A stretch of 64,000 nt of DNA. It comes from Symbiodinium sp. CCMP2592. Taxonomy: Eukaryota; Sar; Dinophyceae; Suessiales; Symbiodiniaceae. Under the pieces are notes generated by a model that searched no databases, was not told where the DNA came from, and was given only the letters and a program-made list of their open reading frames with translations. This document shows, in pieces, positions 3,607 to 33,400 of this stretch (positions are counted from its first letter, which is position 1; every line of letters starts with the position of its first letter). The translations under genes were made by a program, and so were the position numbers. Location: positions 186,001 through 250,000 of the forward strand of contig CAJNDT010002902.1 of the NCBI GenBank assembly GCA_905221615.1, given 5' to 3'.

Positions 3607-3657
3607 CTTGCTTGCTGGCTTGCTTCCTTGCTTGCTCGCTCGCTCTCTATCTCTCTT
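3607..3657. repeat. Imperfect CTTG/CTCG microsatellite
   Basis: About 40 bp of tandem tetranucleotides, CTTG grading into CTCG, followed by a short CT-rich tract. Several units are substituted, so it is an old or imperfect array. Confidence 0.85.
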
Positions 3658-4197: not shown

Positions 4198-4236
4198 GTC
4201 TGTCTCTCTCTCGCTCTCTCTGTCTCTCCCTCTCGC
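4198..4236. repeat. Imperfect TC microsatellite
   Basis: A TC-rich tract of about 39 bp with single-base interruptions (TCTCTCGCTC, TCTCTGTCTC). Confidence 0.8.
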
Positions 4237-5032
4237 ATACTCAGCAAAGCGCATGGCCGGCACCGGTTGCCAGGCCAAGGGCGGCTCTGAACAGAGAATG
4301 TCACCAACGAACAGGCTCTTGGCAGCAAGTAGGACCTGAGCACTGCAGCACCGATAAGCAAAGGCCTGCGGCAATGGCGTCTGCCGCCCGGACTCCATCC
4401 GGTCGGCTTGCAACCAGGCTGGAGGGCAGGGCCTGCATGGCCTGCGGCTCTTCGGAATCTCGCAAGAGGCTCCGATCCGACGCAGCCTTTGCCTCGCTGG
4501 GCTCTGCAAGAGCTGGAGAAGGTCGTGCTCGGGACGAGCAGACGGTGCGGTGCAACGACCAATGGATTCCTTGAGAAGCTATGCGGCTACGCGGGTTTCA
4601 TCGCGGGTGCTCTCCTCAGGCCCAGGCTGCCACATTTGTCATTGCAGTATCGCACCTGGCTCAAGGAAATAGCCGGGTCACGCACTCAGATCATCGAACA
4701 GTTCTGCGCCGCTGGCCAATTAATCCGAGAAGGATCGAGAAGCTGACGGCCCCTTGTAGCTGGCAGCCATTGGATTTAGGAGTCGGTTTGACTCACGTTG
4801 GTTTGTCTTTCGTGGTTTTGTAGCCCTGCGCGGAACCCGCCAAACCTGCCGGACCCCGAACTCCAAACTGCAGCGCCCTGCGCGAGTCCGAATCACTACT
4901 CCAACTACTGTGCAATAGAACAACTCCAAGGGCAAGATTCATGCCGGATTCGATCCTGATCCGGTGGCTGTTCTTTTTCGGACAGCCCACACTTTGTCAG
5001 TGGTTTACCTGAGCAAAGGGGAGGCCGGCATT

Positions 5033-16724: not shown

Positions 16725-17315
16725 TCAAAAACCAAGATCTGGACATCTGGAGGCCTGTGAGCAACTGGCTCGGAGATGAAATTCCTCAACCAATTGCAAA
16801 AAAATGTCCAAACAACTGCTGGTCACTGGCTCGCTCGAAGTCCCTGAGCTCTGCACATGTCCACAATACCTTCGACAACGACGGTTACGACTACCGCTCC
16901 GCGTCTCGTCAAGACATTGGGGCCTTCCATCCGGCTGTCGGTTTGTACCGATCGGGTGCTTTTTTCGGACTTCGGCACCTGAGCAAACACCCGCATGGGG
17001 TGTTTCCGTTGGCATTGTTGCTTCAGTTGACTGATTGGCCTCGAGTGGCTCGCACAGCAAACCTGCTTTGCGAATTTTGAGGGGGAAAACCTCTATAAGC
17101 TCTGCAGGCAGACACCTCCGGCCGTCAGCTTTCGCAAGCGCTTTGGCCCTGATCTCTTGAGCCAAAACCACGCCGCAAATGTACGACTCGCCTGAACCCA
17201 GGGCCAAGGGCTCATGAGGAAAAACACCGAAACCAAAAATGCATCCTGTTTCGGCTCTTGGCAATTTGAAATGTGTCGCACCGCTCTCACGGAGCCACCT
17301 TTCCTGCGAAGGCAC
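16725..17315 (-). CDS. Conserved-looking ORF of unknown function
   Basis: An open minus-strand frame of about 196 codons. It begins with a GTG, so it is probably an internal exon; a possible AG acceptor precedes GAAAGGTGGCTC at about 17305. The first 90 codons look like folded protein (FGFGVFPHEPLALGSGESYI, AQEIRAKALAKADGRRC); the rest is polar and basic. I recognise no family. A 12-bp match to the 3' end of the dinoflagellate spliced leader lies inside it (17156-17167). The start is not determined. Confidence 0.4.
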   Translation of the reverse strand: MPSQERWLRESGATHFKLPRAETGCIFGFGVFPHEPLALGSGESYICGVVLAQEIRAKALAKADGRRCLPAELIEVFPLKIRKAGLLCEPLEANQSTEATMPTETPHAGVCSGAEVRKKHPIGTNRQPDGRPQCLDETRSGSRNRRCRRYCGHVQSSGTSSEPVTSSCLDIFLQLVEEFHLRASCSQASRCPDLGF

Positions 17316-17317
17316 AC

Positions 17318-19570
17318 ACGCGCGGAGTGGCGTGCGCAGCCGACGGTTGCAGCTCTACTTCAACTATAAGGTCTGCCTGTCTGACACTTCAGCCGTCCCA
17401 ACCTTCAGCCTTTTACGCGGCCTTAGGCATGTGCGGCTTCGTGGGCCCTCAGGCACGCTACAAGTAGGTTGGCGTCAGTCGAGACAGCTGCATGATGAGC
17501 AGTTGGATGTGCTGGGATGCGCATCTTCTGCTGTCAGATGTATGCACGTGTCCGCACGCATGCAGAAAAAGGAGCTTTGGTGTTCGGTGACTTCCCCAAC
17601 CTCTTCATCATGCATGCTGCAGCAAGAAAGCATGGAAGTGAAGCAGACTGCGGAGGGTGGCAATTGAACAAAGCTTCAACACCCAAACTCACCCGAAAAA
17701 AGACACGAGAACGGCACCAGCAGCAGCAGCAGCAGCTCAGACGCGTGAAGTTGGGCTTGCCACTGACCAGCAACCCTTCAGATTTGGTCCTGCATCGTCT
17801 GTGATCGCGGACCTAAAGGGCGCATAAGCTTCAGCATGCCGGAGAGGTCAGCTGGCAAAGGACCTCGCGAAATGATGCGACAACACGACAAGTCTCTGCA
17901 CCTGCACACCCAGGAGCCCACAGAAGCCACTGATCAGGTTGCCTTCGACCAGCAGCCCTGCAGAATGTATGTCGTCGCGTCTTCTGTGCAGGGACTACGG
18001 CCTCCTCAAAAGTCTTCTGTGCGTTGTGTTCTGCCCGAGGTGTGCCTGGTTTGGTCGTAGCTGCGCATGGCCAGGCTGTATGCCATTGTGCGTGTTCTGA
18101 CGGCTTCCCCCTAACTTCGGCTCTTGTGTGGTCTCTTTTTGCTTTGTTGCTCTTTGTTTTCTTGGTCTTCTTCTGGGCGTTCTGCATCTCCTCTTGGGTC
18201 TCGCTTCTCGTCTCTTCGGTCTCTTTTCAAGTGCCCGACCAGTCCCAGAAGGCGTCGTCCTACTCATGTTGTGTGCCCTGATTTGTTGGCCGGTCTCTTG
18301 TTTCTTGCTGGTACTGTAGAACTCGTACCCGACGTCATACTCGACGAGGGCGCGGGCTTCGGCTTTGTCCGCGTAATCATTGGGGCCGTTGGTGGCTTTG
18401 CCCTCGGCTTTGACTGTGTTGTGCGACCTTGGTCTCCCTGTGGCTTCTGCGTGGTCGGAAGTCTGCGAGGATGCTTTGGTTGACCGCCTCTGGGTTTGTC
18501 CTCGACGCCTCCATCAAGAGCTTCGGTGCTGCGCCATCTTGTGCCGCACTTCCATGTAAGATGCAGTCAATGGCTCCTGCTCCCCTCGAGATCTGGACAC
18601 CCTTCTGGCGCGCTTTCGACCCACTCGGTCTGCTCACTTTCGCAGCTGTGTGGAACGCTGGAATTATGCGCGCATTCGCCTCTTCCTCACTTGCGAAGGG
18701 GTTGCCCAACAGTAGGAGAAGAGGGGAGCATGCACCGGCGGGGCAACTTCGCAGAAACAGGAGGCCTACCGATTCCAGCACCTCGAGGACCTTCGAGAGT
18801 TGCTGACAGGTTCACCGCTTCTTAAACGACGACGGGGACAAGACGATAAAGACTTTGTGCATTGGGAAGAGACCAACAGCGAGGGAGCGTCGGCGCAGGT
18901 CTATGTGCTATGATGGAGAGGAGGAGGAGGAGACCTGCAGAGCCCACTCCAAGGGAAGGGCGACCAAGAATGAGAGAGAAGGGGCACCATCCAAGCGGGG
19001 ACACACCGAGGTGCATGCTTGGGGCCTCGAGGGGTGAGCGAACGAAGATGGCGGCAGCAGAAGCTGCAATGCTTGATCGAGGTGTTGCTATGGCTGCGCA
19101 GACCAAGGATAAACCTCCGGGCTGCTGGATCCAACAGCTTGAGCCATCTTGCTCGCTTCGGGGCATGGGCCCGCGAGGGAACCCTGGCCCGAAGGCCTAC
19201 ACCCTCCACAGTCCGCGCGTCTCAAGGTCTGTACGGCCCCTTTCGGGGATGAGAGAAGCACTCGTTCCCACGACTGAGCCCTCCCCACAAAACACCGCTC
19301 CTGAACCATCTCTCACTCTCTCGCCCTCTGCTGCTGCATCTAAACGGTCCCAGTGCATGAGTCAGCACAACCACCACCGGATCTCACACATCTCATCATA
19401 AGATGCACTGTGGCCTAGAAATGCTGCATGCAAGAAGATGCGCGGGCACCACCGATCCAAGTCCTCGTGCCAGTCACAGGTGTCTCGACAGGTGCATCTG
19501 GTGTGGCTGAGTGGTCGTCTGGGTCTGCTCCATAAGTGGCATCACCTCAATCACAAAGGTCCGCTCTGTA
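17318..19570. other. No recognised gene; Lys/Arg-rich minus-strand frames
   Basis: Minus-strand frames at 18.8-17.8 kb contain polar stretches such as ADKAEARALVEYDVGYEFYS (about 18390-18330) and a Lys-rich segment (QKKTKKTKSNKAKRD, about 18175-18130) in different frames. They could be exons of a basic, poorly structured protein, but no motif or consistent splice pattern was found. A (CAG)n tract lies near 17,718-17,735. Confidence 0.35.
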
Positions 19571-19572
19571 CG

Positions 19573-19720
19573 CGCAAACAAGCAAGCAAGACAAGAAAAC
19601 AAGCAGAAAAAGCAAGGAAGCAGCTAAGCTGGAGAAGGAGTATGCAAAGCGAGCAAGCAAGCGATCAAGCATGTATTCACCCAAGCAAACATACAGGAAA
19701 GGATGCAAGCAAACAAACAT
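19573..19720. repeat. Imperfect AAGC/CAAG-type tetranucleotide repeat
   Basis: An A-rich tract with many CAAG, AAGC and AAAC units, interrupted by other sequence. It is of the same kind as the CTTG array at 3.6 kb read on the other strand. Confidence 0.7.
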
Positions 19721-19734
19721 TACCATAGATGTTA

Positions 19735-20119
19735 CAGCTTCTATCAATACTACTTAGTTACTACTACTATGACGATAGCGATAACTACTACTTTCAGCAC
19801 TACCAGTACTGTTGCTATGAATGTTACCTTTCTGATACTGTTTCTGCTGCTATGACTTTTGCGAGGACCATTAGTCTTACTATTGCCAGTACTGCCATTG
19901 CTATTGCTAGTGCTACTACTATTTACTCGTACTGGTATTACTACTAGTACCATTCCTATTGCTACTACTCTTACTCTGACTCGTGCTCTTACTAGTATTT
20001 TACTATCACTCTTACTCATGCTCTTGCTCTTACCCTTAGTCTTAGTCTTAGTCTTAGTCTTACTCCTACTCCTACTCCTACTAGTACTACTACTACCACC
20101 ACTACTACTACTACTACTC

Positions 20120-20155
<36 letters not shown>

Positions 20156-20157
20156 GA
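19735..20157. repeat. TAC/ACT-family trinucleotide array, imperfect
   Basis: About 420 bp built from TAC, ACT and CTT-type trinucleotides. It is heavily substituted on the left and becomes almost pure (CTA/TAC)n at 20,100-20,153. It is the first of four TAC-type arrays around the retrotransposon. Confidence 0.9.
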
Positions 20158-20201
20158 CCGAGGTTTAATCTGCTGCTGGCAGCCTTCATGCTTGGACTCC
20201 C

Positions 20202-20486
20202 GTGGCCGTTGATTCCATGCTGCTGGTGGTGCATGACAGCGCTTCGGAAGAGGAAGATGCTGGAGGTGAGGCTCTGGCATCGACTACGATTTCTGCTGGG
20301 GCAACTGCAGACACTTCCTCTACCGCTGGCCTTCATGGGAGCTATGCAACCGCAGACGGCACAACTGGAGTCAGCATGGATGGCGAGAGCGGGCCGGTGC
20401 GCTTCTCATATTATCCCAATTGTGGGAGGGCAGAGCCCAGGATTGACTTGAATGGCATGGATTTTTTTTGCCGCCCGCCTGGCTAG
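20202..20486 (+). CDS. Short plus-strand ORF of uncertain status
   Basis: A frame of 94 codons immediately after the TAC array. It is acidic and Ala/Thr/Ser-rich (DSASEEEDAGGEALASTT) and ends with a more ordered segment (VRFSYYPNCGRAEPRIDLNG). It could be an exon, a fragment of a mobile-element ORF, or chance. No family was recognised and the surrounding sequence gives no support. Confidence 0.2.
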   Translation: MAVDSMLLVVHDSASEEEDAGGEALASTTISAGATADTSSTAGLHGSYATADGTTGVSMDGESGPVRFSYYPNCGRAEPRIDLNGMDFFCRPPG

Positions 20487-20793
20487 GACGAACCTACGAT
20501 GCAGGGTACACTCATGGCAACACAAAATCTATGCAACTTCAGTGCGCTACAACGCTGCTACACGTGTCTGTCCGTTTGGAATGCACGCTCGCATGCAAAC
20601 AGTGCTCACAGGGTATGTGTTTCACACGCCCGGCTTCAGTTTCAAGCTCAGCACTCTCTTTACACAGCTCAGCACTCTCTTCGCAGTGTCGTACTGCAAT
20701 ACCCCCTGCTTTGTGTTCTCCGCCCGCAGTTTGGTTGCCCTGCTCGCCAACTGCTAAGCCCACGCTTTTCAACGTCCCAGTCTCCCTTCTAGT

Positions 20794-20944
20794 ACATGCA
20801 GTGGCATGCATTGTCGTCAAGCGACCATCCTCATGGGACAGCAACGGTCAGCTGTCAAATGCCAGGTACGGGTCACAAGCAGCAAACATGCAGTGGCATG
20901 CTTTGTCGTGAAGCAACTTTCCTCGGCAATCCATGGGACAGCAG
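20794..20944 (+). repeat. Direct duplication, two diverged copies
   Basis: A unit of about 55-60 bp starting ACATGCAGTGGCATGC and ending CATGGGACAGCA occurs at 20794-20847 and again at 20886-20944. The copies have diverged and contain small indels. Confidence 0.75.
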
Positions 20945-20954
20945 TTGCCTTGAA

Positions 20955-21177
20955 TTCAACAAATTCAACGAATACAGTTGGTTAGATTCCACGAATACTC
21001 CACGAATACTGTGAATTCCGAATTCTGAATGTGTTGGATGGCATGGCATGGATTGAACGTAGCGGTCGGTAGGTCTTCCAATCAGGATTCATCAAAACGA
21101 TGAAGCTGCCACTGAGCGGCCGGTCATTTTTACTGTCCTCCCTCGTCGAGCACATGGATTGTGTGACGTCCGCAATG
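20955..21177. other. AT-richer spacer with short ACGAATACT repeats
   Basis: GAATTCAACAAATTCAACG is followed by variants of ACGAATACT(C/G) at 20,968-21,015. No gene was seen. Confidence 0.6.
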
Positions 21178-21179
21178 CA

Positions 21180-21180
21180 A

Positions 21181-21231
<51 letters not shown>
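21180..21231. repeat. Pure (TAC)n array
   Basis: About 17 uninterrupted TAC units followed by a T run. This is the second array of the TAC family next to the retrotransposon. Confidence 0.95.
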
Positions 21232-21233
<2 letters not shown>

Positions 21234-21404
21234 TTTTGCAGCAGGCCTCGTTGTCCAGCTGCCCGGTTACAGCAAAGAGCCCTCCCTCGCTTCTTCAAAG
21301 CCAGGAGAGGAGTCGAGCTGACACTCGCGACGACACTATCTGATACGACAATACCTTACTATACTGACTGATTGCAAGACTGTGAAATTCCATGAGCTCG
21401 CTCA

Positions 21405-21405
<1 letters not shown>

Positions 21406-21470
<65 letters not shown>

Positions 21471-21590
21471 GCTACTACTGCCACTACTGCTACTACTGCT
21501 ACTACTGCTACTACTGCTACTGCTGCTACTGCTACTGCTACTGCTACTGCTACTGCTACTGCTACTGCTACTGCTACTGCTACTATTACT
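21406..21590. repeat. (TAC)n grading into (TGCTAC)n; 5' flank of the retrotransposon
   Basis: About 22 pure TAC units, then mixed TGC/TAC units, ending TGCTACTATTACT. The retrotransposon begins immediately after. The last 13 bp recur at its 3' end. Confidence 0.95.
21578..21590 (+). repeat. Left copy of presumed target-site duplication
   Basis: TGCTACTATTACT, identical to 29697-29709. The ATT interruption makes the match more specific than plain TAC units. Confidence 0.6.
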
Positions 21591-21621
21591 CGCCAAGCTC
21601 CAAGACCGTGTCCGCAGAAGG

Positions 21622-24600
21622 ATGGCCAGGAAGATGGAGGAAATTTTCCAGGCCAATAGAGCCGCTGGACTCAGCACGGACCCAGCTGCCTCATCCAGTG
21701 CTGCATATAAGGATCAAGTTTACAGTTCATCATGTCAGCGTCTGCACCAGCTTGGTCAGCCTTGCAGGAGACGACACATGTCCCTTTCACTTAGACCTGC
21801 CATGCTCTTTGCCTTCGCCCCTCTCAGGTCCAGCCCACCAGTGGCTCCGACAGGCCAAGCTGACACAGGCGGGGATTGCTTTACTGAGTGCTCGGTGTTG
21901 CAGACCTACGCACCTAGGTCCTGGAAGCCACCTAGGTGGGTTCCCTGCTTACAAATCTTTGCTGCTTCCTCAACTGGCTATTGCCTGCAACACTTGCGGA
22001 TATCAGGCTCGTGTCTGCCGACATGTCGGACGCCCGACGGCAAGCCCGGATCCTCGCAGGTCCTCTTGCTACCCTGCTGGGGCTTTGAAAGGCCACTGCG
22101 CTCTTCCACATGTGCCTATCCAGGCCTTGAACGACCTGCGTGTACATCTACCACCATGCCGGCCGGGCTCACATGTACATGGACCTACGGTGCCTCCCCA
22201 CACCGTGATGACTATCGATGTCCTGTGACTCGAGGTATGTCAGCTGCATTGGCAACAGGTCCTTCTCTGTTGCACGTTCACTCCACAATTGGTGTTCAAT
22301 ATAGTCACCACACCTGGCAGGGGTGGCCGGATGCTTTCCTGACTGACCAACCTGAACAATGTCTGGTGTGCCTTCGTCACACCAGACCATCTGCTGGTCT
22401 TGCTTCGGTACGATGCCCACCTCCACCACCAGGAGCTGGTTTACAACCCGACGGGCTCTCAGTTCTTGTGACCGTCACTCCCAGGAGGACGATAGCTCCA
22501 TTTCGCTGTTCTTCCAGCCTGCCTCCAGGTCTGTCTTCGCCACTGGGCGCAGGCCAGAGGGTCGAGCAGGCATCACCCTGGGACTCTTACTTGCCCAACT
22601 TGTGCAGGATATCCCGGGCACGTGGCTTGCCTATCGTCTGGCGGACCCATGCTGTGAGTGGTGTCGGCTTGAGTACCGTAGATGCACACCATATGCCACC
22701 CGTATGCAACAAACCAGCACCTCGCAGGCTAACAAGATCAGATCCCGAGAGCATGACTCTGAAGTGCAGTTGCTACACAAAGCTTCCCAAACGGCACTGG
22801 ACCTGCACACTATGGATTAGCTGTGTAGACAGTCTGCTGCACCGCACACCGATGCCGATGCAAGCATTTTTGTCAACATGGACAACTAGCACTATAAGGT
22901 GCCCCTCTCACATTCTCAACACACCTGCTCTGAGCTACTCCGGTCCCAATTCCGGAGACCGACATTTTCGTACGGCTGACAACCTGTCATCTTTCAGATA
23001 CCAGCTGGTTGTCCATCTAGCCTCCGAACAGTCGGTAGGGGCGAGGGTTGTGAGCGGCTGCCACCCGCTCACGAGACCGAAACTCACCTTCGTGGTGAGG
23101 GACGGGAAGCCGTGGCAGGAGCCCAATGAACTACACTCTGCTGTGAGGGCAGTCTTGCGGGACCCCCCACAAAACCACACTATTCGCTCTGACCCAGGAG
23201 TCACTCTAGGCACTGCTTGTTCCCCTAGCCTGACCTCCTCTCTGTTTTCAGCCATCTGTTCATCGTGGGCTGGTCAAGGAGACCAGACTGCAGGCCCCTG
23301 TGGCGTGCCAAATAGCATGGACAAACTGCTGCCTGGATATGCTCCACCGCAGTCAAAGCCCCGGTATTTCTTCCTCTACAAACAGGGTCTTCCTGTTCGT
23401 CTTGTTGCCATCTGGGCTCCAGCACTTCCACACCTTACCTCTCCTGGCCTTCCTCGTATTAGGAGGCCTCCCTCTGGAGTACAACCACCAACACCTGCAA
23501 CCCGACCTACCAACACTGCCGACAGGTGTCGCCCTCCGCCAAACACTGATCGACCTAGTGAGGCCCCTGGCACGTCGACGCACTCTAAGCTGTGCCCTCG
23601 TCCTATTCTGTTTCTCTCGACTCTGTTAGCCCTCCCAAGGTCGATCTGGGGAGTGCCCTCTGCACACCCTCTGCACTCTGCAGTAGCGGGTCACTCAGGA
23701 GAACCCAGGCCGGTTGCAGCCAACCCCACTGAGTACACATTTGCAAGGAAGCGATCTTACAAACGTGCCGTACGTCGTGCTGCACAGGACCAGGCCCAGC
23801 ATACGGTTTATCGGGGCCGTGTCTGTACCCTGCAACAGCTTTGCAAAGGCTATCGGGGCCATCGGCCCGCCCCCCAGGCTGAGCGTCGTATGCAGCAGGC
23901 CGCTCTGAAAGTCTCCCAGGGTCGCTTGTTGTTCCTCTCTTGGAATGCTGGAGGATTGTCCCAGGCCCTGTGGCAGGAATTCTTATTAACACTTGAGAAT
24001 ATGCCGCCTGACGATCGTCCCCAGATCGTGTGTGTTCAAGAAACTCACTGGACGGATAAGGTGGCACCCCAATTCCCCACCGCTACGTGGGATGTGTACA
24101 CCTCCCCGACCACTGATAACAAATCTGCTGGGCTCCTGATTCTCCTCAACAAGCAGACTACCCGTAACTGCAGAATTGTCTACGCCGACCCTCAACCGGG
24201 TAGGGTGCAACACCTGAGGATACTCCATGACCAATGGGCAGTCGACCTGCTGCACATCTATCAAAAGCCGCACAACTCTCATCCACTCGCCCTGCAATCT
24301 TCCAAAACCATTCGCTTAGCTGTTTGGGAGTGCATTGGTAAGATCCTGGCGGCCCTACCTGCCCGCAACACGGTGATCATGCTTGGAGATTTTAATACCC
24401 AGATCAAGCCATGTGCTGCAGCTGGCACCAGGATTTGTTCCGGCAACAGCTCGGGAACACATCCACCTGACCAGGCACGGCTGCAGCATCTTGTCGAGGA
24501 CTTCTCCCTCCTACATCTCAACTCATGGTGCAAGGCTGCTGGCCCCACGTACCATCACAACAAAGGTGCCAGCCTCATTGACCATATTATCATGCGTTCT

Positions 24601-27519
24601 TGCCAAGCGGATGACCGTGCTCGTCAGGCCAAACCTCTCCGCCTGGGACTAGCTGCATGGAGGCTTGGTGGCTACCATTTACCACTGAAGGCCAGTATCC
24701 CGCTTCAGCGCTTCCACACTCTCAACAAACCGGTGGCACCAAAACGAGCATGGGACCATTGGGGCTTGATTCAGGTTTGCCGCTCTGCTTGGGATCCGCG
24801 AGTACAAAGTCTACGTGCTGCCGTCCAGGCATCCCTACCTGGGGTCACTGATCTTGGGCAACTACATGCTACTCTGATTCACTGTGCATCCCAATTTTTC
24901 CCGCCGCCCACAGGTCAGCATCGGCTAGCACTATGGCAGACACCACCAATGCAGGATGGTATTCGATCCATGTGGCAGGCCTACCGAGCCTGGAAGACTG
25001 CCAAAGCTCAAGATCGGCACAATCCGCTTTATGTATCCAGGTGCTATCATCACTTCAAGACGGCACACAAGGCCTTTCGTCAAGCCGGGAAAGAAGCTAA
25101 GAAGCACTGGTTCCATGGCAGGCTCCAGGAATTACAGGCTGCCGCCTCTTCGGGTGACTCCCGCAAACTTTATGCTGGCATCCGCACCCTAGCTCCCAAA
25201 TCCTCCAAGCCGAAGGTTCAACTGCGAGATTCTGGTGGTCATCTGCAGGACCCTAAGATCCAGCTACAACAGCTGGAAACGCACTATCGTAAATTATATG
25301 CTGCAGACGAGGATACCAGCATCCAGGGCCCCCAGCGGACGCCAATTCACATCGAGGTCACGGAGGCCGAAATGACCCTGGCACTTTCGCAATTGTCACC
25401 CCACAAAGCTACACCTCCAAATCTAGCCACAAACTCTTTATGGAGGCTGACCTCGGACATTGTCGCGCCTCTCTTGTGCCAATGGTGCCGGCAATGGCCT
25501 CATATACCAGAGCTATGGCGGAATGCTTGGTTGACTCTCGTTCCTAAGATTCCGCGACCACTCTCACCAAAGAATCTCAGACCAATAGGGTCACCTGAAT
25601 CCAGCGGCCGCGCATATGCTTCCATACTTCAGGCGAAACTGCGCCCCTATGCAGAGAGGTTCCTTGCGGATCAGGCACAATTTGCATATCTACCGGGTCG
25701 CAATGCTGCCCAAGCCATACATCGTGTTGCTGCTCACTGCAAGTATGTACAGGATCGCTGCTCGATCTCAACACCCACGGTTGTGGATCGTCACGCACAA
25801 CAACCGAAACCCTGCCCACATTTTGCAGGTGCACAACTCTCACTGGACTTGTCCAGCGCTTTCGACCTCATGGACTGGCGCCTGCTGGACAAGGCTTTAC
25901 TTGCATCTGCCGTTCCGGCTGAGTTAAGACACCAAATCATGTCCTGGCACTCCGAGATTTCCTACGTCCTTACCCACCTTGGGCACACTGCCAAAGTGGA
26001 GGCCCAAAGAGGACTTAGACAAGGGTGTAAACTGGCTCCGTTGCTCTGGACACTTGCCCTGGCACAGATATATCGTGAGCTCCTTGCAGAGGAGGACTCG
26101 CTCCTCACAGCCCCTTGGCTAGAGCAAAGCTCCACGATTTATGCAGATGATATACATCAAAAAGATACCGTGCAGAACACTCGTGAGCTGGACGACATGG
26201 TGTATCGCTTTAGTAAGATCCTCGATGCTCTTGCTGCCCATGGTATGGTCATCAACTCGGCCAAATCAGCACTGTTGCTGAGACACAAGGGAAGTTTCAT
26301 CAAAGGCTGGCTGCGACGACATCTCATACACAAACCTGAGGGAGACCTACTACGCTTTCGTAGCCCCCTGGGAAAGGTGTATGAAATTCCGTTGCGTGAC
26401 CATCACACGTACTTAGGCATTCGCATCTCATATCATTCCCAGGCCAAACAAGCAGTCACCTATCGGCTACAGGCTGCGAACCAGGCATGGCAAAGACTTC
26501 GTGGTGTATTGTGCTCTACCAGGCACCTTGCTCAGACACATCGTCTTAGTCTATGGAAATCCACAGTGCTTCCCACGCTGCTCTACGGCATCGCGGCATC
26601 CAACCCAGGTGCCAAGGATATCCAGCGTATGCAGCACATGATGACCAAGCGGGTCCGAGCCATCACCCGATCTTTTGCACATCTTCAGAAAGAATCCACA
26701 CACGACCTCCTGCATAGATGCTCTCTGTTCACCATCTTGGAGCATCTCCAGAGGGAAGCCGCCGCCTTGCATCGCAGCCTGACTGGCCTGAGTACCCAAA
26801 CGAGCTTCGTGACCCAAGCCCAGGTGGAAACAGCTCGAGACACAGCTGCTCTGCTACGCTTCACCTACAGGTGCAACGCCAATGGCAGGTACCTCTCGGT
26901 GACAAAGAGGGCATCACTGAACCTGCTGTACACCAGTGCCAGGAATGTCATCGGGTCTTCACCTCCTTTCGGCTACTACGTTCTCACGAGGCTAAATGGC
27001 ATGGACTCAAGACACCTGCTGCTGTCCCAGTGCCTTTTGATAGGTATGCACATGGAACAGAAGGACTTCCAACGTGCAGACATTGTGCCCATCCCTTCCG
27101 ACAATGGGACGGACTTGTCAAACACATCAAACGCAATCGGTGCCAGGTACTCCGTAGACTTGCCACAAAATCTCCTGCTGATGCCCAACCCTTGGCTCCG
27201 AGATCAAGTGAACCCGATCCTTTACCAGTCCTTGCATCGGTCACCCTGCCACCTCAGGCCTCCTCTCAGGAGACCCACATCCTCCAAGAGGCTCAGGCTG
27301 CTACGCCTACTACTATTCCTGACGTTATACCTGAACCCCCTGTCACAGATGCTCCACTGCAGGACAGCTCCACTACACCGAGCCATGAGGCTGTTCCCCT
27401 TCATCAGCAATCTCATGTTCTCGCAGCGCTACGTGCACGCAGGTGGACTGACCTCCTTGAGAAGCCGGAGATCCAATCGTATCTCCAGCACCACTGCCCG
27501 CTGTGTTACCAGTGGCTAG
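21622..27519 (+). CDS. Endonuclease-reverse transcriptase ORF of the LINE
   Basis: The frame is open from inside the microsatellite to a TAG at 27517-27519. The first ATG inside the element is at 21622 (MARKMEEIFQANRAAGL). Residues encoded at about 23922-24650 form an exonuclease-endonuclease-phosphatase domain: FLSWNAGGLS, CVQETHW, IMLGDFNTQ and SLIDHIIM give the Asn, Glu, Asp-Asn and Asp-His catalytic motifs. Reverse transcriptase follows at about 25,500-26,450: LVPKIPRPLSPKNLRPI, LSLDLSSAFDLMDW, RGLRQGCKLAPLLWTLAL and the YADD active site (TIYADDIHQKD, at 26,140). After about 26,870 the likely coding frame shifts to the zinc-finger frame, so the last 200 codons are probably non-coding here. 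The region before 23.9 kb is open in this frame but has protein-like pieces in the other two. Confidence 0.8.
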   Translation: MARKMEEIFQANRAAGLSTDPAASSSAAYKDQVYSSSCQRLHQLGQPCRRRHMSLSLRPAMLFAFAPLRSSPPVAPTGQADTGGDCFTECSVLQTYAPRSWKPPRWVPCLQIFAASSTGYCLQHLRISGSCLPTCRTPDGKPGSSQVLLLPCWGFERPLRSSTCAYPGLERPACTSTTMPAGLTCTWTYGASPHRDDYRCPVTRGMSAALATGPSLLHVHSTIGVQYSHHTWQGWPDAFLTDQPEQCLVCLRHTRPSAGLASVRCPPPPPGAGLQPDGLSVLVTVTPRRTIAPFRCSSSLPPGLSSPLGAGQRVEQASPWDSYLPNLCRISRARGLPIVWRTHAVSGVGLSTVDAHHMPPVCNKPAPRRLTRSDPESMTLKCSCYTKLPKRHWTCTLWISCVDSLLHRTPMPMQAFLSTWTTSTIRCPSHILNTPALSYSGPNSGDRHFRTADNLSSFRYQLVVHLASEQSVGARVVSGCHPLTRPKLTFVVRDGKPWQEPNELHSAVRAVLRDPPQNHTIRSDPGVTLGTACSPSLTSSLFSAICSSWAGQGDQTAGPCGVPNSMDKLLPGYAPPQSKPRYFFLYKQGLPVRLVAIWAPALPHLTSPGLPRIRRPPSGVQPPTPATRPTNTADRCRPPPNTDRPSEAPGTSTHSKLCPRPILFLSTLLALPRSIWGVPSAHPLHSAVAGHSGEPRPVAANPTEYTFARKRSYKRAVRRAAQDQAQHTVYRGRVCTLQQLCKGYRGHRPAPQAERRMQQAALKVSQGRLLFLSWNAGGLSQALWQEFLLTLENMPPDDRPQIVCVQETHWTDKVAPQFPTATWDVYTSPTTDNKSAGLLILLNKQTTRNCRIVYADPQPGRVQHLRILHDQWAVDLLHIYQKPHNSHPLALQSSKTIRLAVWECIGKILAALPARNTVIMLGDFNTQIKPCAAAGTRICSGNSSGTHPPDQARLQHLVEDFSLLHLNSWCKAAGPTYHHNKGASLIDHIIMRSCQADDRARQAKPLRLGLAAWRLGGYHLPLKASIPLQRFHTLNKPVAPKRAWDHWGLIQVCRSAWDPRVQSLRAAVQASLPGVTDLGQLHATLIHCASQFFPPPTGQHRLALWQTPPMQDGIRSMWQAYRAWKTAKAQDRHNPLYVSRCYHHFKTAHKAFRQAGKEAKKHWFHGRLQELQAAASSGDSRKLYAGIRTLAPKSSKPKVQLRDSGGHLQDPKIQLQQLETHYRKLYAADEDTSIQGPQRTPIHIEVTEAEMTLALSQLSPHKATPPNLATNSLWRLTSDIVAPLLCQWCRQWPHIPELWRNAWLTLVPKIPRPLSPKNLRPIGSPESSGRAYASILQAKLRPYAERFLADQAQFAYLPGRNAAQAIHRVAAHCKYVQDRCSISTPTVVDRHAQQPKPCPHFAGAQLSLDLSSAFDLMDWRLLDKALLASAVPAELRHQIMSWHSEISYVLTHLGHTAKVEAQRGLRQGCKLAPLLWTLALAQIYRELLAEEDSLLTAPWLEQSSTIYADDIHQKDTVQNTRELDDMVYRFSKILDALAAHGMVINSAKSALLLRHKGSFIKGWLRRHLIHKPEGDLLRFRSPLGKVYEIPLRDHHTYLGIRISYHSQAKQAVTYRLQAANQAWQRLRGVLCSTRHLAQTHRLSLWKSTVLPTLLYGIAASNPGAKDIQRMQHMMTKRVRAITRSFAHLQKESTHDLLHRCSLFTILEHLQREAAALHRSLTGLSTQTSFVTQAQVETARDTAALLRFTYRCNANGRYLSVTKRASLNLLYTSARNVIGSSPPFGYYVLTRLNGMDSRHLLLSQCLLIGMHMEQKDFQRADIVPIPSDNGTDLSNTSNAIGARYSVDLPQNLLLMPNPWLRDQVNPILYQSLHRSPCHLRPPLRRPTSSKRLRLLRLLLFLTLYLNPLSQMLHCRTAPLHRAMRLFPFISNLMFSQRYVHAGGLTSLRSRRSNRISSTTARCVTSG

Positions 27520-29561
27520 CCACTCCTACCAGCATCAAGTATCATCTCACCATGCAACATCCAGAGTGGAAAGACTGCCAACCTGCGACTCTCAAGCTCC
27601 TTACTGGTTTCCGCCGACATACTGTAGTTCCATGTCGATACTGTCATCAGCGAAACATCAACAAAGATCGACATTGGAAACAGTGTCATGTTCTGCATAT
27701 CTGTGCATTTCTAGCAGCGCATCATGACGCTCACCGCGGATCCCATGGAGCTGGACGAACAGGAGAGGCAATTTTGGGCCCAGGCTGGTCCGGTCAAGCG
27801 GGAACAGGAACCGAGAAGAGATATGCTGCAACAAGCCGAGCAATCCAAGAGGCAGCGTCTGGCACCGCAGGACCGGAACAAGGGCAAGGGCAAGGGTACC
27901 AAGGGCAAAGGCAAGGGAAAGCAGGGCCTACCAAGTCCACCAAGTGCACACCCGACCATGGGTTACACAAATGGTTTCGGAAGCCATCCACCCAATCCAT
28001 GGACACAGACACAGGACCTGCAGCCACTGGGAAGTCAGGATCCAGAATGGATGGAGTACAGGATGAACCGACTGTCTCAGCTGGTCCTTCGTCAGGAGCA
28101 AATCATCTCAGCCATCCGTCAGGATCTGGTCCTCTACCTCTTTGTACGATCTGGACCAGAAGGGATGGTGCCAGTTCTATGCGAAGCAGCGGAGAAGTGG
28201 AGGAAGATGAAAGAGGAAGAACCCGAGAAGATCACTTACTCCCTCAAACTCATGCTCTTCAAGCAACTGCTCATCACCTTACATCAGAGGTTGACCAACA
28301 TGATCGCGGACGAGGATGCTCTCGCCAAAGCCAAGAACCTGAACTGGATCGACGATCAGAAACATTGGAAACATCTCACATGGAATCCCTCCAAACAATG
28401 TCTGGAAGTAGACAACTCAGTGAGGCCAATACCGGCGGAGGATCTGTTGGCCCAACTGGTTCAGATGAGGAAGGCTGTTACGGAGGAGACCCTGGTGAGG
28501 TTCAAGTCCATGCGGAAGCTCACCACGGAGGTGACCTCCGACTGGATCCAATTCCAGATCTGCTTGTCACTTCGCCCAGAGGGGGGAGCCATGTGGAGTA
28601 CGCTGAACCAGTGGATCGGTCAAGCATCGTGGCACACACTGGGATGCAGGCTCCGTCGCGATCGACCGAACTACGACACCCTGGTCCAGGAAGTGTGGCA
28701 GCATCAGATGCCATACTGAGTGTGCGCCCTAGTCTCAAGGCCGTTCTTCGATTGATCTTCCACAATCCATCGAATTTGTGCTACCTACACTCTACCATCT
28801 ATGCCCTTCTGTGGACAATCCTTCAGGCCAGGCTACACGATGCCTATATCTCGCCTCCACCGCAGGCTCTTACCATGCTGTGTCCACCAATCACTGATTC
28901 GCCCAATTGTCCCATTCAGGTGCTCCATTCGGTACCGTGGCTTATGCTGCTGCAAGCTTGGCCTTCTGTAAACCGTCAGCATGATGCAGCTGAGCTGATA
29001 CAATACCTCTTACCCAGGTTTTCGCATAGTGGGTTCAATGGTGGCTGGGAGGCCAGAAACTTTGCACCTGGAGGTATTGCCACTCTTGATACGGGGCCTA
29101 CCCAAGCTCCAATAGCGATTGTGCTACCGGCAGGTCCAAGCTTGGAGCTTCAGGCAGCCATTGATGGGTGGAGTGCTCAGGTCACAGCCCGTTATGCACT
29201 GCTGACCCCGTCTCCCATGCTCTGCATACAACTTCAGCGATTCACGAATGCCGAGGGAGTCATGCGCAGGGACACCAGACCACTGGCTATGGCCTCGACT
29301 ACAGTTCGTATGCCACTCTTTGCAGGGCTGCACACTATGCAAGTTCGCTATGTTCACTACCAGGTCGTCGCTGTACAGCTTCACTACGGGGCCACTCCTG
29401 ATATGGGGCATTACAGAACTATCCTACGAGGACAGCCGCTGTTTGGTGCAGAAAAATGGTGGATCACTGATGACTCCTGCACAGCAAAGTCAATTGGCAC
29501 AGAACATGATGGCAACATATATATAGTGTGGCTACGTCAGGTACTTCCTCCTGGTGCCTGA
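26718..29561 (+). CDS. Zinc-finger and ubiquitin-specific-protease-like (C19) ORF of the LINE
   Basis: A frame open for 947 codons. Its N-terminal part has Cys/His fingers: CQECHRVFTSFRLLRSH (26,930), CRHCAHPFRQWDGLVKH (27,080), CPLCYQWLATPTSIKYH (27,495) and CRYCHQRNINKDRHWKQC (27,630). The C-terminal part (28,720-29,558) shows the USP boxes in order: Cys box NPSNLCYLHSTIYALLW, QQD-like box RQHDAAELIQYLL, strand LCIQLQRF, His box YQVVAVQLHYG then GHYRTIL, WWITDDS with the Asp, and IYIVWLRQ. Catalytic Cys, His and Asp are all present, so it could be an active deubiquitinase-like protease. The middle (27,724-28,719) is polar, low in structure, and overlaps another ORF. Initiation is unclear: the first ATG at 26718 lies in reverse-transcriptase sequence, so a frameshift from the upstream ORF is an option. 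Confidence 0.7.
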   Translation: MLSVHHLGASPEGSRRLASQPDWPEYPNELRDPSPGGNSSRHSCSATLHLQVQRQWQVPLGDKEGITEPAVHQCQECHRVFTSFRLLRSHEAKWHGLKTPAAVPVPFDRYAHGTEGLPTCRHCAHPFRQWDGLVKHIKRNRCQVLRRLATKSPADAQPLAPRSSEPDPLPVLASVTLPPQASSQETHILQEAQAATPTTIPDVIPEPPVTDAPLQDSSTTPSHEAVPLHQQSHVLAALRARRWTDLLEKPEIQSYLQHHCPLCYQWLATPTSIKYHLTMQHPEWKDCQPATLKLLTGFRRHTVVPCRYCHQRNINKDRHWKQCHVLHICAFLAAHHDAHRGSHGAGRTGEAILGPGWSGQAGTGTEKRYAATSRAIQEAASGTAGPEQGQGQGYQGQRQGKAGPTKSTKCTPDHGLHKWFRKPSTQSMDTDTGPAATGKSGSRMDGVQDEPTVSAGPSSGANHLSHPSGSGPLPLCTIWTRRDGASSMRSSGEVEEDERGRTREDHLLPQTHALQATAHHLTSEVDQHDRGRGCSRQSQEPELDRRSETLETSHMESLQTMSGSRQLSEANTGGGSVGPTGSDEEGCYGGDPGEVQVHAEAHHGGDLRLDPIPDLLVTSPRGGSHVEYAEPVDRSSIVAHTGMQAPSRSTELRHPGPGSVAASDAILSVRPSLKAVLRLIFHNPSNLCYLHSTIYALLWTILQARLHDAYISPPPQALTMLCPPITDSPNCPIQVLHSVPWLMLLQAWPSVNRQHDAAELIQYLLPRFSHSGFNGGWEARNFAPGGIATLDTGPTQAPIAIVLPAGPSLELQAAIDGWSAQVTARYALLTPSPMLCIQLQRFTNAEGVMRRDTRPLAMASTTVRMPLFAGLHTMQVRYVHYQVVAVQLHYGATPDMGHYRTILRGQPLFGAEKWWITDDSCTAKSIGTEHDGNIYIVWLRQVLPPGA
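27724..28719 (+). CDS. Nested ORF of the LINE, unknown function
   Basis: A 331-residue frame with its own ATG and a TGA stop, one frame away from the zinc-finger/USP ORF that spans it. It begins MTLTADPMELDEQERQFWAQ, has a Lys/Gly repeat (NKGKGKGTKGKGKGKQG) typical of nucleic-acid-binding tails, and then a helical region (QLVLRQEQIISAIRQDLVLY, LMLFKQLLITLHQRLTNMIA) that looks globular. A stop in this frame shortly before the ATG supports separate initiation. It may be a nucleic-acid-binding accessory protein, but I recognise no family. The alternative is that it was joined to its neighbours before frameshifts. Confidence 0.55.
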   Translation: MTLTADPMELDEQERQFWAQAGPVKREQEPRRDMLQQAEQSKRQRLAPQDRNKGKGKGTKGKGKGKQGLPSPPSAHPTMGYTNGFGSHPPNPWTQTQDLQPLGSQDPEWMEYRMNRLSQLVLRQEQIISAIRQDLVLYLFVRSGPEGMVPVLCEAAEKWRKMKEEEPEKITYSLKLMLFKQLLITLHQRLTNMIADEDALAKAKNLNWIDDQKHWKHLTWNPSKQCLEVDNSVRPIPAEDLLAQLVQMRKAVTEETLVRFKSMRKLTTEVTSDWIQFQICLSLRPEGGAMWSTLNQWIGQASWHTLGCRLRRDRPNYDTLVQEVWQHQMPY

Positions 29562-29696
29562 CGCTGAGCAAGTGTAGTCTTAGTGGATGGAGCTGGCACT
29601 GCCCTCCAGAACCCAACAGAGGTTCCGATACCCCGAATACCGGGCTATCGTCAGCTCGCTAGGCGAATCCGGACACTTCGCTGCGTGGTGAATGAA

Positions 29697-29709
29697 TGCT
29701 ACTATTACT
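29697..29709 (+). repeat. Right copy of presumed target-site duplication
   Basis: TGCTACTATTACT, identical to 21578-21590, directly after the 3' end of the element. Confidence 0.6.
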
Positions 29710-29775
29710 ACTACTGCTACTACTACTATAGCAATACCGACAGCGATTTTAATAGTACTAGTAATGGTAATAGTG

Positions 29776-29827
<52 letters not shown>

Positions 29828-29906
29828 TAGTAGTAGTTGTAGTAGTAGTAGTAGTAGTAAAAAAAAAACAGTAATAGTAATAGTACTATTAGTACTAATA
29901 CTACTG
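29697..29906. repeat. TAC array followed by TAG array
   Basis: (TAC)n-type units to about 29,730, mixed sequence, then (TAG/GTA)n from about 29,775 to 29,858, an A run, then more TAG/TAC units. TAC and GTA are complementary, so the two halves can pair. Confidence 0.9.
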
Positions 29907-29909
29907 TAG

Positions 29910-30400
29910 TGTTGCGACTAGTATCCTATTCCTATTCCTAATAGTAGGGGAACACGAAAGGGAACAACTTGAAAAAATAAAAACTACCGAACCAAATGAA
30001 AAAACTCCCGATATGTGGCGACCGCTCTGTACCTGCGCTGTCCACAACAGTGCATCCATACACCGTCTGGGGCTGCCACCGAGCAACGGAAAGCCTTCGC
30101 TGCTCAGGTGCGCCTTCCAGGAACGAGGCAGGAATTTCAACAAGCCTCGTGCGTTGTTGCAGCTCTGAGTCTTCAGCCCGAATCTGGTGAAGCCTTCCGG
30201 TGAGGATTTCCACCTGCATGCATGGTATGCCCGTGGTTCAAACAGAGCTGGCCAAACGGGGGTAAGTCGCAGCACTTGCACGGCTACGGAACATGCAGAC
30301 ACTTGCACAACTCTGCCACATCATTTTGTTGATTCCACCCGGGACGAAACGTCGCGGGTATTGTTCACTCCAGATCCACATCGGCCTTTGTTGTTCAATT
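29910..30400. other. No recognised gene
   Basis: Open frames on both strands are short and lack motifs. The region separates the microsatellite from the coiled-coil gene on the right. Confidence 0.5.
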
Positions 30401-30409
30401 GCATCGTAC

Positions 30410-33400
30410 AGAACACGGTCATTTAGCAGGAAACGAAGCGCGAATGACTCAGGCACTGGCAAGAGATGCTTCCTTGGTAGTGGGATTCTCCAGCCCAAAC
30501 CGGATTAACTGCAGCGCATGCTACCATGATGTAGCAGAAACAACGCGGCCGAGATGCAAGAGCCGACTTTTTGCTCTTGAGGACATCCATCTCCATGGTT
30601 CGTGCCTGTTTCTTCGCCTTGTAGTTGGCGATGAGCTTGTCACATTCCTGCAAGCTGACGCAGCTGCTGCATCGACACAAGCCTGCCTACTTGCCTCCCA
30701 AAAAGTTCAATTCTGCCATGGCTCGGCGTTCAAGGTCGAAGCGAGCTGATCCGTTAGGCCCATCTGCTCCTTCAAAGCCTGGATTAACGCACTCTTTGGG
30801 CGGTTTAGGGCTCCATCCTACTTCTTTTTGGTGGGAGATGGGCGTGGGATGGCATTGCCGGCCTTCTGTCTGTCCTGGATGCGCTGGGACTCAGCCGTCA
30901 GGGCTGCCTGACCTCCAACGAAGTCCGTCAGGGTGTAGGCATCCTTCCGCCGGGAGGCCCGAGCCACCTTGCGGGGCACCCGTCGAAGAAGGGACCGGCA
31001 TGATTGGGATGGCCTTTACCAGCTCCACGTAGGCGGCCTGGTCGGCGGCCTCGCCTCAGCCAGAACTGTTGTGCTCCTCTTCGGCTGTGGCCTGGTAGGC
31101 TGCTGTGCAACTGGGCGTCGAAGTTTCACTTGTTCGACTTCGGACCGGACTGCGTCGATGACTGCCTGCAGCGACCTGCCAGTACCAGCCATGAAGCCAC
31201 ATGCAGCAGTTCACTTTCGTGACCCCGACCTCAGCGCAGCCTTGGTGTCCGTTCCGGAGGTAGTCTCCAGGAGAAAGCCGAACTCCTGAACCACTCAGCT
31301 TGTCTGCAGCACACCTTGTCTTGAAAATGGGCGAAGGATGGCGAAGGTCCTCGTCGTCTTTCTTGGGTTTTGGCCCATCAAGGGTGCCACCCTCGCGGTG
31401 CTATGAAGACTGTCTCTGCACACCAAGAGCTCGCACGCAACCGCTTCCAGTCGGAGCCTCGTCTAAGTATTTCTGAAGAGAGTTCATGGCTTTGTGCATC
31501 ACCTTGGCACTAGGCCCGTGCAATGAACGAACGAAGAAAGAGAAAGTCTGTGCATCCTGGTGACATCTACAGCCGCAGCACCTTGGCATTTGTTTGCTGC
31601 ATCTATGGGTGACACTGAGAGGATACTCAGCCGCCACCTTGCGCGATGGATGTTGCCAAGTGCTTGTGCTCCTTCTCGCGAAGCTCGGTGGCTTTGGCCA
31701 CCACCCAATCAACCCGAGTTATCGCCGTCCTTTGTTGAAGGACGACTGCACTGGGCCCGGGTGACTCGTGAACATAGGAACATCTGTCATCCGTGCTTGC
31801 GGTTGAGATCAGCAGCTTCTCAGCGGCAACGTCCCTCTCCAGGGTTTCAAGCTGCTCACTCAGCCTGGGTGCCACAATCAAGTGCATCAGCATCAGTTGC
31901 AACATGGATCTCGTACCTATTGCTGCTGGGAATCGTAGCGATGTCAGCAGCCTTGGACTGCGCTTTCTCACTAAGGGCTGCCTTAGCTTCCTCGGTGGAT
32001 GCCGTTTCGTCCTGACGTGGACGCAAGCGCTCTTGCCCACAACAAGCATATCCTTTTTTGACGGAGCCTTGCACATTTGAATCTTGAGGTTGTCGTCCTC
32101 CTGTGCCTTCTCCAAGACCTAACGGTCAGAGCGAAGCGAAAGATCTGACAAAGAGATACATAGGCTGCCTCGACGGATATGTGCTAGCTGAGATGAATGC
32201 AGAGACCATGGAATCGACGAGCTTGGTGATCTTCTCTAGGGCAGGACCTTCTGAAACAAGATCCCAACCCTTCATGGTGTCTTGGGCAGGGCTTTCAGGA
32301 TTGAGCTGCACATCTTTACGGGTTCATCGAAGGAGCTTGGCTTTCCTCTGAGAGCACGTTGTTGCCCGGAGGTGGTGTGCGCATTCTGGTGCCTGCTGAA
32401 TTGCTGCACAACAGCTTCCCAAAATGTCCGTGCCCCCTGCCTCTGAGCCACTTGCAAGAATGTCACAAGGGATGCAGGCTTGAAAATCTCCAGGTCGGTT
32501 CCCGACAGCCTGCAGCTGCAGCATGTCTGCCCCGTCCCCGCATCACTGCAAGCTTAAAAGCACAGGCTGGCACATGAGCTTTGCTGCGCCCTGCAAAGCT
32601 TTCTGCTCTTCCTGCATTTCCATCTGCCTTGAAGCCCACATGAAGGCAGGAACAACTAGGTTACTAGGACTCCAAGCGGCTTGGCTCTGATCTTCTTGCT
32701 TGCTGAGTGTCATGGAGGTATGCTGGCCGCGCCGAATTGTGCACCAATTCTGCAAGCTCTTGCCGAGCTTGTCCGCATCATCCACAAGAGCGGCTGTGTC
32801 CTGGCGAGCGTCTCGTCAACCCGCAATGCTGCACACGACACTGTCGAACTGCCTGACGCTCCATGCGAATGGTTGCCATCTGCTTCTGAAAGGCAGCATC
32901 TCGTTCGCCCTTTTGCTGTAAGCTCCTGCAAGACAAGAAGTCCCCGAGAAGAGACAGGACTCAAGGCAAGGCTTGTATCCTCTGTAGAGACTTGAGCTCG
33001 TCTGTCTTCGCCTTCCTCGAGGTCCAGAAGACAGAGATTGAGATGAGACTTCTGCTACTTGTATCTTGTGTTCCTCTGCACGGTCTGACTGCTGCCCCGG
33101 ATTCTGCATTGCGGCAAAGACCGCCGCTCTCTTCGCCTCTTGAGTCTTCAGCTCCTTCATGTCTTTCTTCACGCCATCCTGCCGCTTGCAGCGCTCTGGC
33201 AAACAGTCTAAACCGAGCTCAAGGGTCGCGGGTCAGTCCAGCATGTTCTTCAGCATCTCCTGAGAACGTATCACATGCTGGCAAGAGCCCTTGGCACGTT
33301 TCGTGATGCAGAGCTAACACTACCAATGAAGTGCAGTGGTGAGGAGCCAAGACTTGAATCTTCTGGCCGGCAGTTGCATCTGGAGCTTGAAGCATCTCTA

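Follow-up and report, generated by a model that had tools for sequence, protein, structure and literature searches.

A predicted ubiquitin-specific protease domain at the end of an APE-type LINE of Symbiodinium sp. CCMP2592, joined to the reverse transcriptase through a spacer that overlaps a second reading frame

Accessory proteases of the ubiquitin system are already known in mobile elements. The NeSL and Utopia retrotransposons, which lack long terminal repeats (LTRs), encode a Ulp1-like cysteine protease, and Dualen-type elements encode two endonucleases, as described in PMC4640811. Among DNA transposons, PMC2836005 reports Ulp1 in Ginger1 and Mutator, OTU in Helitron and Ginger1, and a peptidase C19 in a Trichomonas transposase_11 protein. 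In Symbiodinium itself, SymbioLINE-Dnmt elements carry a captured DNA methyltransferase in their first open reading frame (ORF1) with Ka/Ks < 0.2 (PMC5890265); neither 'ubiquitin' nor 'protease' appears in the main text of that paper, and 'ubiquitin' is likewise missing from the main texts of a survey of accessory domains in retrotransposons (PMC6338049) and of a review of dinoflagellate genomics (PMC11453091). Here we describe a long interspersed nuclear element (LINE) with an apurinic/apyrimidinic endonuclease (APE)-type endonuclease (EN) and a reverse transcriptase (RT), in which the Pol protein appears to end in a ubiquitin-specific protease (USP, peptidase family C19) domain. It lies in a 64,000-nucleotide stretch of Symbiodinium sp. 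CCMP2592, hereafter the window (assembly GCA_905221615.1, contig CAJNDT010002902.1, positions 186,001 to 250,000 of the forward strand; all coordinates below count from the first base of this stretch). In a genome paper (PMC8045281) the strain appears as S. tridacnidorum CCMP2592.

The window LINE shares with NeSL and Utopia a cysteine protease of the ubiquitin-like systems in the same protein as the RT, but theirs is Ulp1-like, N-terminal and combined with a restriction-like endonuclease (PMC4640811), whereas the domain described here is a C-terminal USP, combined with an APE endonuclease and preceded by an overprinted spacer. The Ginger1, Mutator, Helitron and Trichomonas proteins likewise place a deubiquitinase-type domain in a mobile-element protein, the Trichomonas one also being C19, yet these are DNA transposons with no reverse transcriptase, and the available text of PMC2836005 mentions no nested second ORF. 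SymbioLINE-Dnmt resembles the window element as a Symbiodinium LINE with a captured enzyme under purifying selection; its enzyme is a DNA methyltransferase in ORF1, not a C-terminal USP (PMC5890265). For the spacer, the nearest parallel is the hepadnavirus envelope ORF, which is nested in the polymerase ORF (PMC5604429): in both cases the polymerase ORF of a reverse-transcribing element completely encloses a second gene, although the one reported here is a predicted ORF and we claim no sequence relationship. Cellular USPs, among which the ubiquitin-specific members USP4, USP12, USP15, USP36 and USP46 are examples of the domain's PDB sequence matches, have the same motif order (Cys, QQD, LxRF, His, Asp). 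The LINE domain is shorter than these, lacks CxxC finger pairs and belongs to the Pol protein of a retrotransposon.

Frame 3 of the plus strand is without a stop over 26718-29561. The initial annotation had proposed a USP-like domain at 28715-29561 of this frame, and the Pfam profile PF00443 (UCH) agrees: it matches the whole frame-3 ORF at 26.1 bits (E 8e-6) and the C-terminal 314 aa alone at 31 bits (E 2.5e-7), above the curated cut-off of 23.9 (hmmscan). The USP motifs named in that annotation (NPSNLC, the Cys box, starting at 28764; RQHDAAEL; LCIQLQRF; GHYRT; TDDSC) were found at their places by a motif scan. PF00443 reaches E <= 0.01 in all 13 sequences of a set made up of the window and 12 relatives, and an RT-bearing locus of the same genome (L013) scores far higher than the window, at 78.7 bits (E 2.2e-19). 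A USP-type (C19, PF00443) cysteine protease domain with its predicted catalytic Cys, His and Asp is confirmed for 28734-29549 at the level of sequence.

The domain recurs in the same company elsewhere. Relatives numbered P below are predicted proteins, some of them perhaps spliced models. EN, RT and UCH matches occur together in P0025 (2023 aa, 26 member sequences), P0027 (2059 aa), P0039 (1998 aa; its EN match, 24.3 bits, falls just below the cut-off of 24.5) and P0041 (2027 aa, S. microadriaticum), while P0040 (2264 aa) has EN, RT and a sub-cut-off UCH match and P0016 (1564 aa, 25 members) has RT and UCH. In P0025, P0027, P0039 and P0040 a single chain runs from EN through RT, zinc fingers and linker to USP. 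A PF00443 profile search of the same genome (1.098 Gb) gave at least 148 matches (149 of 1371 candidates scored), from which 20 places were read, picked mostly for long open frames and so not a random sample. An RT was present in 12 of the 20, and in 11 of these EN, RT and USP lie in a single unbroken ORF; at the sole exception, L017, the EN sits in a separate ORF, and the open-frame length of L023 is not reliable, owing to the sequence at the start of its frame. The other eight places hold a USP with no RT within the 6-10 kb read and were classed as host-like genes. The USP had initially been assigned to a second long frame of the element: its C-terminal place stands, but the separate frame does not, since relatives carry one chain and it is the window copy that is frameshifted.

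Searches with the window's own domains extend this to its subfamily; all counts are lower bounds. The window USP gave at least 143 matches (141 of 2145 candidates scored), and at least 43 copies, window included, are at least 92% identical to it from query residue 1 to at least residue 266 of 273, with no stop in any of the 43. Twelve of these listed copies sit in open frames of 3848-3851 aa, and in the same 12 places the window RT, which gave at least 102 matches (101 of 3438 candidates scored), matches in frames of equal length. When the two lists were compared, over 98 RT rows, 55 of the 56 listed RTs with at least 45% identity (window included) were followed on their own strand by a USP match, at a distance of 1.67-2.80 kb; the one without begins at contig base 3, its downstream side lying beyond the contig end. 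Below 45% identity, 7 of 42 RTs had a USP among the matches listed, and when three of the 35 misses were read, two contained one (E 9e-46 and 1e-42). No relatives were confirmed in viral contigs or prokaryote genomes. The recurrence of RT followed by USP, which the initial annotation had suggested looking for, confirms from sequence that the predicted USP is a regular component of this APE-type LINE in Symbiodinium sp. CCMP2592 and not a chance host fragment.

The domain also evolves as a constrained sequence. Pooled dN/dS within the subfamily of the window copy is 0.16 (21 pairs of 7 copies, window included), with 0.15-0.20 between the window and the six others, and in other families the USP gives 0.13-0.19 (5 pairs), against a median of 0.04 for EN (5 pairs) and 0.05 for RT (4 pairs). 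These values indicate a domain that is under constraint, though changing faster than the RT. In a set of 12 loci plus the window, all 13 sequences keep the catalytic Cys and His, and the third residue is Asp in 12 and Asn in one; in the protein set, Cys is found in all 12 rows with a letter at that position (P0021 is doubtful, being a spliced gene model), His in 13 of 13 and Asp in 11 of 13. The dN/dS values show, as far as sequence can, purifying selection on a USP with its predicted catalytic Cys, His and Asp. In a phylogenetic tree, 20 LINE USPs are split from 10 host-like USPs of the same genome by one branch (support 98/97), two of the ten host-like members (L001, L007) having been read with only 1.5 kb on each side. 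Identities of RT and USP are correlated across 19 elements (r 0.90, 0 of 5000 permutations). The tree and the correlation fit a single acquisition and shared descent, and neither is proof.

The region that separates the last zinc finger from the USP contains, in frame 1, an ORF that we call X, which the initial annotation did not mention, while frame 3 is stop-free across the same bases. This is not what the codons of X would give by chance: 20000 synonymous-codon shuffles of the window X predict 10.8 stops in the polyprotein frame (SD 2.4, minimum 2), and none is observed. X lies in the same relative (+1) frame in 12 of 12 RT-bearing loci, and in 16 of 16 elements read when three further families and the window are added. 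In the 13 copies tested (the 12 loci and the window) the polyprotein frame has no stop, shuffled means being 5.2-12.5 (2000 shuffles per copy, some of which reached zero stops in 3 of the 13), and the third frame over X has 9-25 stops. Both frames are also open in the three further families, to which no shuffles were applied, and in six more copies of the subfamily (7 of 7 with the window); one subfamily locus, L035, has stops in all three frames within the 1.5 kb upstream of its USP. A test for an X hidden in the linkers of predicted proteins was decisive for P0016, P0025, P0018 and P0027, with z 125-171 in the frame predicted for X and no signal in the alternative one. For P0039, P0040, P0024 and P0023 it was suggestive only, both in this form (z 1.9-3.1, controls up to 2.5) and in a banded form with another profile weighting (4.1, 4.6, 3.2 and 2.1, respectively, controls up to 2.0).

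X is the better conserved of the two frames. Amino-acid difference between L013 and L018 is 0.041 in X versus 0.274 in the linker frame, and within the window subfamily 0.017 versus 0.068, so that the linker sequence seems little constrained beyond not stopping. X remains conserved down to 21-28% identity; none of 13 members has a Pfam match, and nothing in PDB matches better than E 0.73. Both frames being open, and kept open across diverged copies, X and the linker qualify as a predicted overprinted gene pair. Just before the ATG of X stands TTTCTAG, which resembles an AG acceptor and is in register in 7 of 8 loci. A genome pattern for retroposed copies of spliced leader plus X gave 0 matches, as did its control, and no relic of a spliced leader occurs in the window when up to 3 mismatches are allowed; the idea that an X message arises by spliced-leader trans-splicing is unsupported.

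In P0041, the USP (residues 1394-1613) precedes an X-like domain (1761-2023), opposite to the window order, as read from one predicted protein whose parts need not come from a single element. With an X-like domain placed after the USP, X and USP look like separate modules. We also observed that the public gene models P0011, P0012, P0013, P0026 and P0020 bridge the frames over very short gaps, for instance about 41 nt from X to USP, and that P0020 seems to extend as far as another USP-like segment some distance away, with a weak UCH match (E 0.027). Genome annotation is affected, in that some public models join two frames by apparently artificial introns.

Given these observations, we propose that the Pol-terminal USP acts as a deubiquitinase, or isopeptidase for ubiquitin-like (Ubl) proteins, on the element's own ribonucleoprotein (RNP), delaying its proteasomal loss, with the overprinted X as spacer; we put the probability of this reading at roughly 0.65. 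A USP domain would have entered the ancestor of this LINE lineage once, as the tree suggests, and would be held to the RT and zinc fingers through a long low-complexity spacer that serves as a tether. From there it could strip ubiquitin off the Pol protein or off host factors at the target site, and proteasomal loss of the RNP would be delayed. The spacer would itself be an out-of-frame reading of X, as its openness and the difference in conservation suggest, and the main requirement on the polyprotein frame would be openness, which keeps the USP attached to the RT. We prefer self-protection of the RNP for two reasons: the USP forms part of the same protein as the RT instead of being free, and the tether remains open although its sequence is not conserved. 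More tentatively, one may imagine an old dinoflagellate LINE lineage with a dedicated deubiquitinase against ubiquitin-based host control, tethered to the RT through a nested X that is perhaps a nucleic-acid-binding partner, which would make it a two-protein overprinted LINE; we think this fuller picture possible, though doubtful.

Protein turnover is partly how hosts fight LINEs, and we know of no LINE with its own ubiquitin protease of the USP class. With at least 43 open USPs of 92% identity or more, 12 of which lie in very long frames, and an active site under selection, escape of a retrotransposon from ubiquitin-based control becomes a testable idea. The nested X provides a clear example, from a eukaryotic mobile element, of a long overlapping frame and supplies a reason for the curious linker. 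A literature search by titles and abstracts recognised no LINE with a USP, in agreement with the initial statement that no APE-type LINE of this kind had been described; its coverage left out most subscription journals and probably Repbase Reports, which leaves room for an earlier record. A USP fused to the Pol of an APE-type LINE, with a conserved nested ORF as spacer, was not in anything found.

Several observations weigh against self-protection of the RNP by an active deubiquitinase. CxxC zinc-finger pairs are common in USPs, though not universal, and 24 of 25 USP domains have no CxxC at all (4 of these are incomplete), the remaining one (L014) having a single CxxC and no pair; binding of ubiquitin need not then be canonical, and ubiquitin as the substrate is an assumption. 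The oxyanion Asn, five residues before the Cys, is present in 11 of 13 copies, the window included, and replaced by His in L019 and by Asp in L023. Two proteins, P0019 and P0023, have Glu as the third catalytic residue. The UCH scores of P0023 and P0040 (19.4 and 20.3 bits) lie under the curated cut-off of 23.9. The dN/dS of the USP is about three times that of the RT, and the rank correlation of RT and USP identities (Spearman) is only 0.34. Finally, a distant relative with X, L038, yields no USP at E <= 1 by the profile used.

The leading alternative, still an unlikely one, is that the enzyme acts on SUMO, NEDD8 or another ubiquitin-like protein instead of ubiquitin, in the manner of Ulp1 and, in cells, of USPL1. 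Ulp1-like proteases are found in NeSL and Utopia elements (PMC4640811), USPL1 is described as preferring SUMO (PMC8983731), and the missing CxxC finger pairs are in keeping with such a substrate. The PDB sequence matches to ubiquitin-specific USPs (USP4, USP12, USP15, USP36, USP46) speak against it, although this is weak evidence.

Next in probability, and in our judgement improbable, the USP could be a processing protease that cuts the very long Pol, open over up to 3851 codons, at a ubiquitin-like fold or at a mimic of the ubiquitin tail. Retroelement polyproteins often carry their own protease, and the very long single frames here do hold an upstream region, EN, RT and USP together. USPs, in turn, normally require a folded ubiquitin-like substrate, and the Pfam matches listed for the window frames, for P0011, P0016, P0018, P0020, P0023-P0028, P0030, P0035 and P0039-P0041, and for the N-terminus of L037 include no ubiquitin-like domain; to our knowledge, most described LINE proteins are not processed.

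Slightly less probable again is translation of the USP in an X-USP fusion, arising through splicing or a frameshift after X, instead of within Pol. The X stop ends 14 bases upstream of the conserved USP start, and in public models, among them P0011, P0012, P0013 and P0026, X and USP are connected across a gap of about 41 nt, with tblastn breakpoints at 28695 and 28737. Such a fusion would leave the open linker frame of the 13 shuffle-tested and 7 subfamily copies needless, and P0002, P0005 and P0007 join at other places, as expected of software that bridges two frames.

We regard it as very improbable that the domain is a non-catalytic module for ubiquitin binding or structure. The ORF of L038 does continue without a recognisable USP, and 2 of 13 copies have another residue in place of the oxyanion Asn; set against these are an invariant Cys and His with Asp or Asn as the third residue in 13 of 13 copies that are 25-34% identical to the window, and dN/dS of 0.13-0.19. 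A host USP gene fragment lying by chance downstream of a LINE is refuted by the architecture common to other copies, and the split in the tree also speaks against it. The at least 43 stop-free USP copies, the subfamily dN/dS of 0.16 and the 55 of 56 RTs with a downstream USP weigh against it too, and they rule out a chance or pseudogene origin. The first interpretation of the locus is supported, as far as sequence comparison reaches: of the three outcomes named in advance as refuting it (an insignificant C19 match, loss of the domain from all other copies, a host fragment confined to this site), none occurred.

Table 1. Coordinates of the LINE copy and its predicted parts in the window.
Feature	Position	Strand	Basis and remarks
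USP/C19 domain	28734..29549	+	frame 3; PF00443 match, motif positions, dN/dS 0.16
USP oxyanion Asn	28764-28766	+	motif scan
USP catalytic Cys	28779-28781	+	motif scan
USP QHD box (RQHDAAEL)	28974-28997	+	motif scan
USP LxxxLxRF strand (LCIQLQRF)	29220-29243	+	motif scan
USP catalytic His (GHYRT starts 29406)	29409-29411	+	motif scan
USP catalytic Asp (TDDSC starts 29466)	29469-29471	+	motif scan
LINE copy, 5'-truncated	21591..29698	+	starts directly after (CTA)n tract 21405-21590; ends at shared ...GGTGAATG(AATG); exact 5' base inferred
APE-type endonuclease (EN) domain	23929..24624	+	frame 1; PF03372 E 1.1e-6; limits from profile of relatives
EN motifs QETH, GDFN, SLIDH	24037, 24385, 24571	+	motif scan
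Reverse transcriptase (RT) domain, YADD at 26140	25504..26748	+	frame 1; PF00078 E 4.1e-19; limits from profile of relatives
Frameshift region of this copy, where frame 1 (RT) gives way to frame 3 (fingers, USP)	26835..26862	+	protein alignments
Four C2H2/CCHC-type zinc-finger motifs, starts 26937, 27075, 27495, 27633	26937..27728	+	frame 3; motif scan
ORF X, 331 aa, nested in polyprotein linker	27724..28719	+	frame 1; basic KGKGKG tract and conserved domain
Polyprotein linker overprinted on X	27726..28733	+	frame 3; about 330 codons, no stop
Short conserved 3' untranslated region	29562..29698	+	common to seven other loci, L030-L036
Microsatellite tail: ACT/TAG-type triplets, then A10	29699..29870	+	window sequence

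With an APE endonuclease and an RT in one ORF by their PF03372 and PF00078 matches, dispersed copies and a common 3' end, the element is an APE-type LINE as judged from sequence, as it had been called at the outset; the 3' end of the window copy is the same in L030-L036 (8 loci with the window), and of the 43 families of direct repeats in 17000-33000, the 20 largest include nothing LTR-like. At its 5' end, 21592-21666 corresponds to residues 432-456 of P0031 (92%, tblastn), and neither residues 1-690 of P0032 nor residues 1-400 of P0035 have a tblastn match anywhere in the window. P0016, P0021, P0022, P0025, P0026 and P0029 each align in frame 1 and then in frame 3 across about 26.85 kb (tblastn). 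Because of the 5' truncation and this frameshift the window copy is not intact, though its USP frame is. C2H2 Pfam models match P0016, P0025, P0027, P0028 and P0040, with the curated cut-off exceeded by P0040 only. The NCBI protein P0011 ('Pol [Symbiodinium sp. CCMP2592]') is identical (100%) to the USP stretch and to 24001-27240. Triplet microsatellite lies on both sides of the window copy (21405-21590 and 29699-29870), masking any target-site duplication, and ACT/CTA-type triplets also border the 3' ends of L030-L036, from a few units (L032, L033) to long runs. Microsatellites at both ends, together with the triplet-flanked 3' ends of the seven loci, may reflect a microsatellite tail or a target preference.

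Some further observations concern the wider family. In L038 (G000:C5022:220200-224500), X is in its usual frame and the C-terminal region is still open, a possible case of enzyme loss. USP matches recur on the single contigs C994, C2844, C1987, C417 and C5128 of G000, some about 3 kb apart as in a tandem array; L015 (C1987) and L020 (C994) have no RT in the stretch read. Several frames are open in 21670-23400, between the upstream remnant and the EN (frame 1 throughout, frame 2 over 21392-22228, frame 3 over 22359-22820), and its frames 2 or 3 are matched by short segments of P0031, P0032 and P0033; it is conceivable that this is a second overprinted stretch. In L037 (G000:C5300:35500-40200), frame 368-4699, a WW domain (PF00397, 28.7 bits, cut-off 26.9) lies in the upstream part of the 3851-aa frame; WW and RT also occur together in P0032 and P0033, and a WW domain seems to belong to the family's upstream protein.

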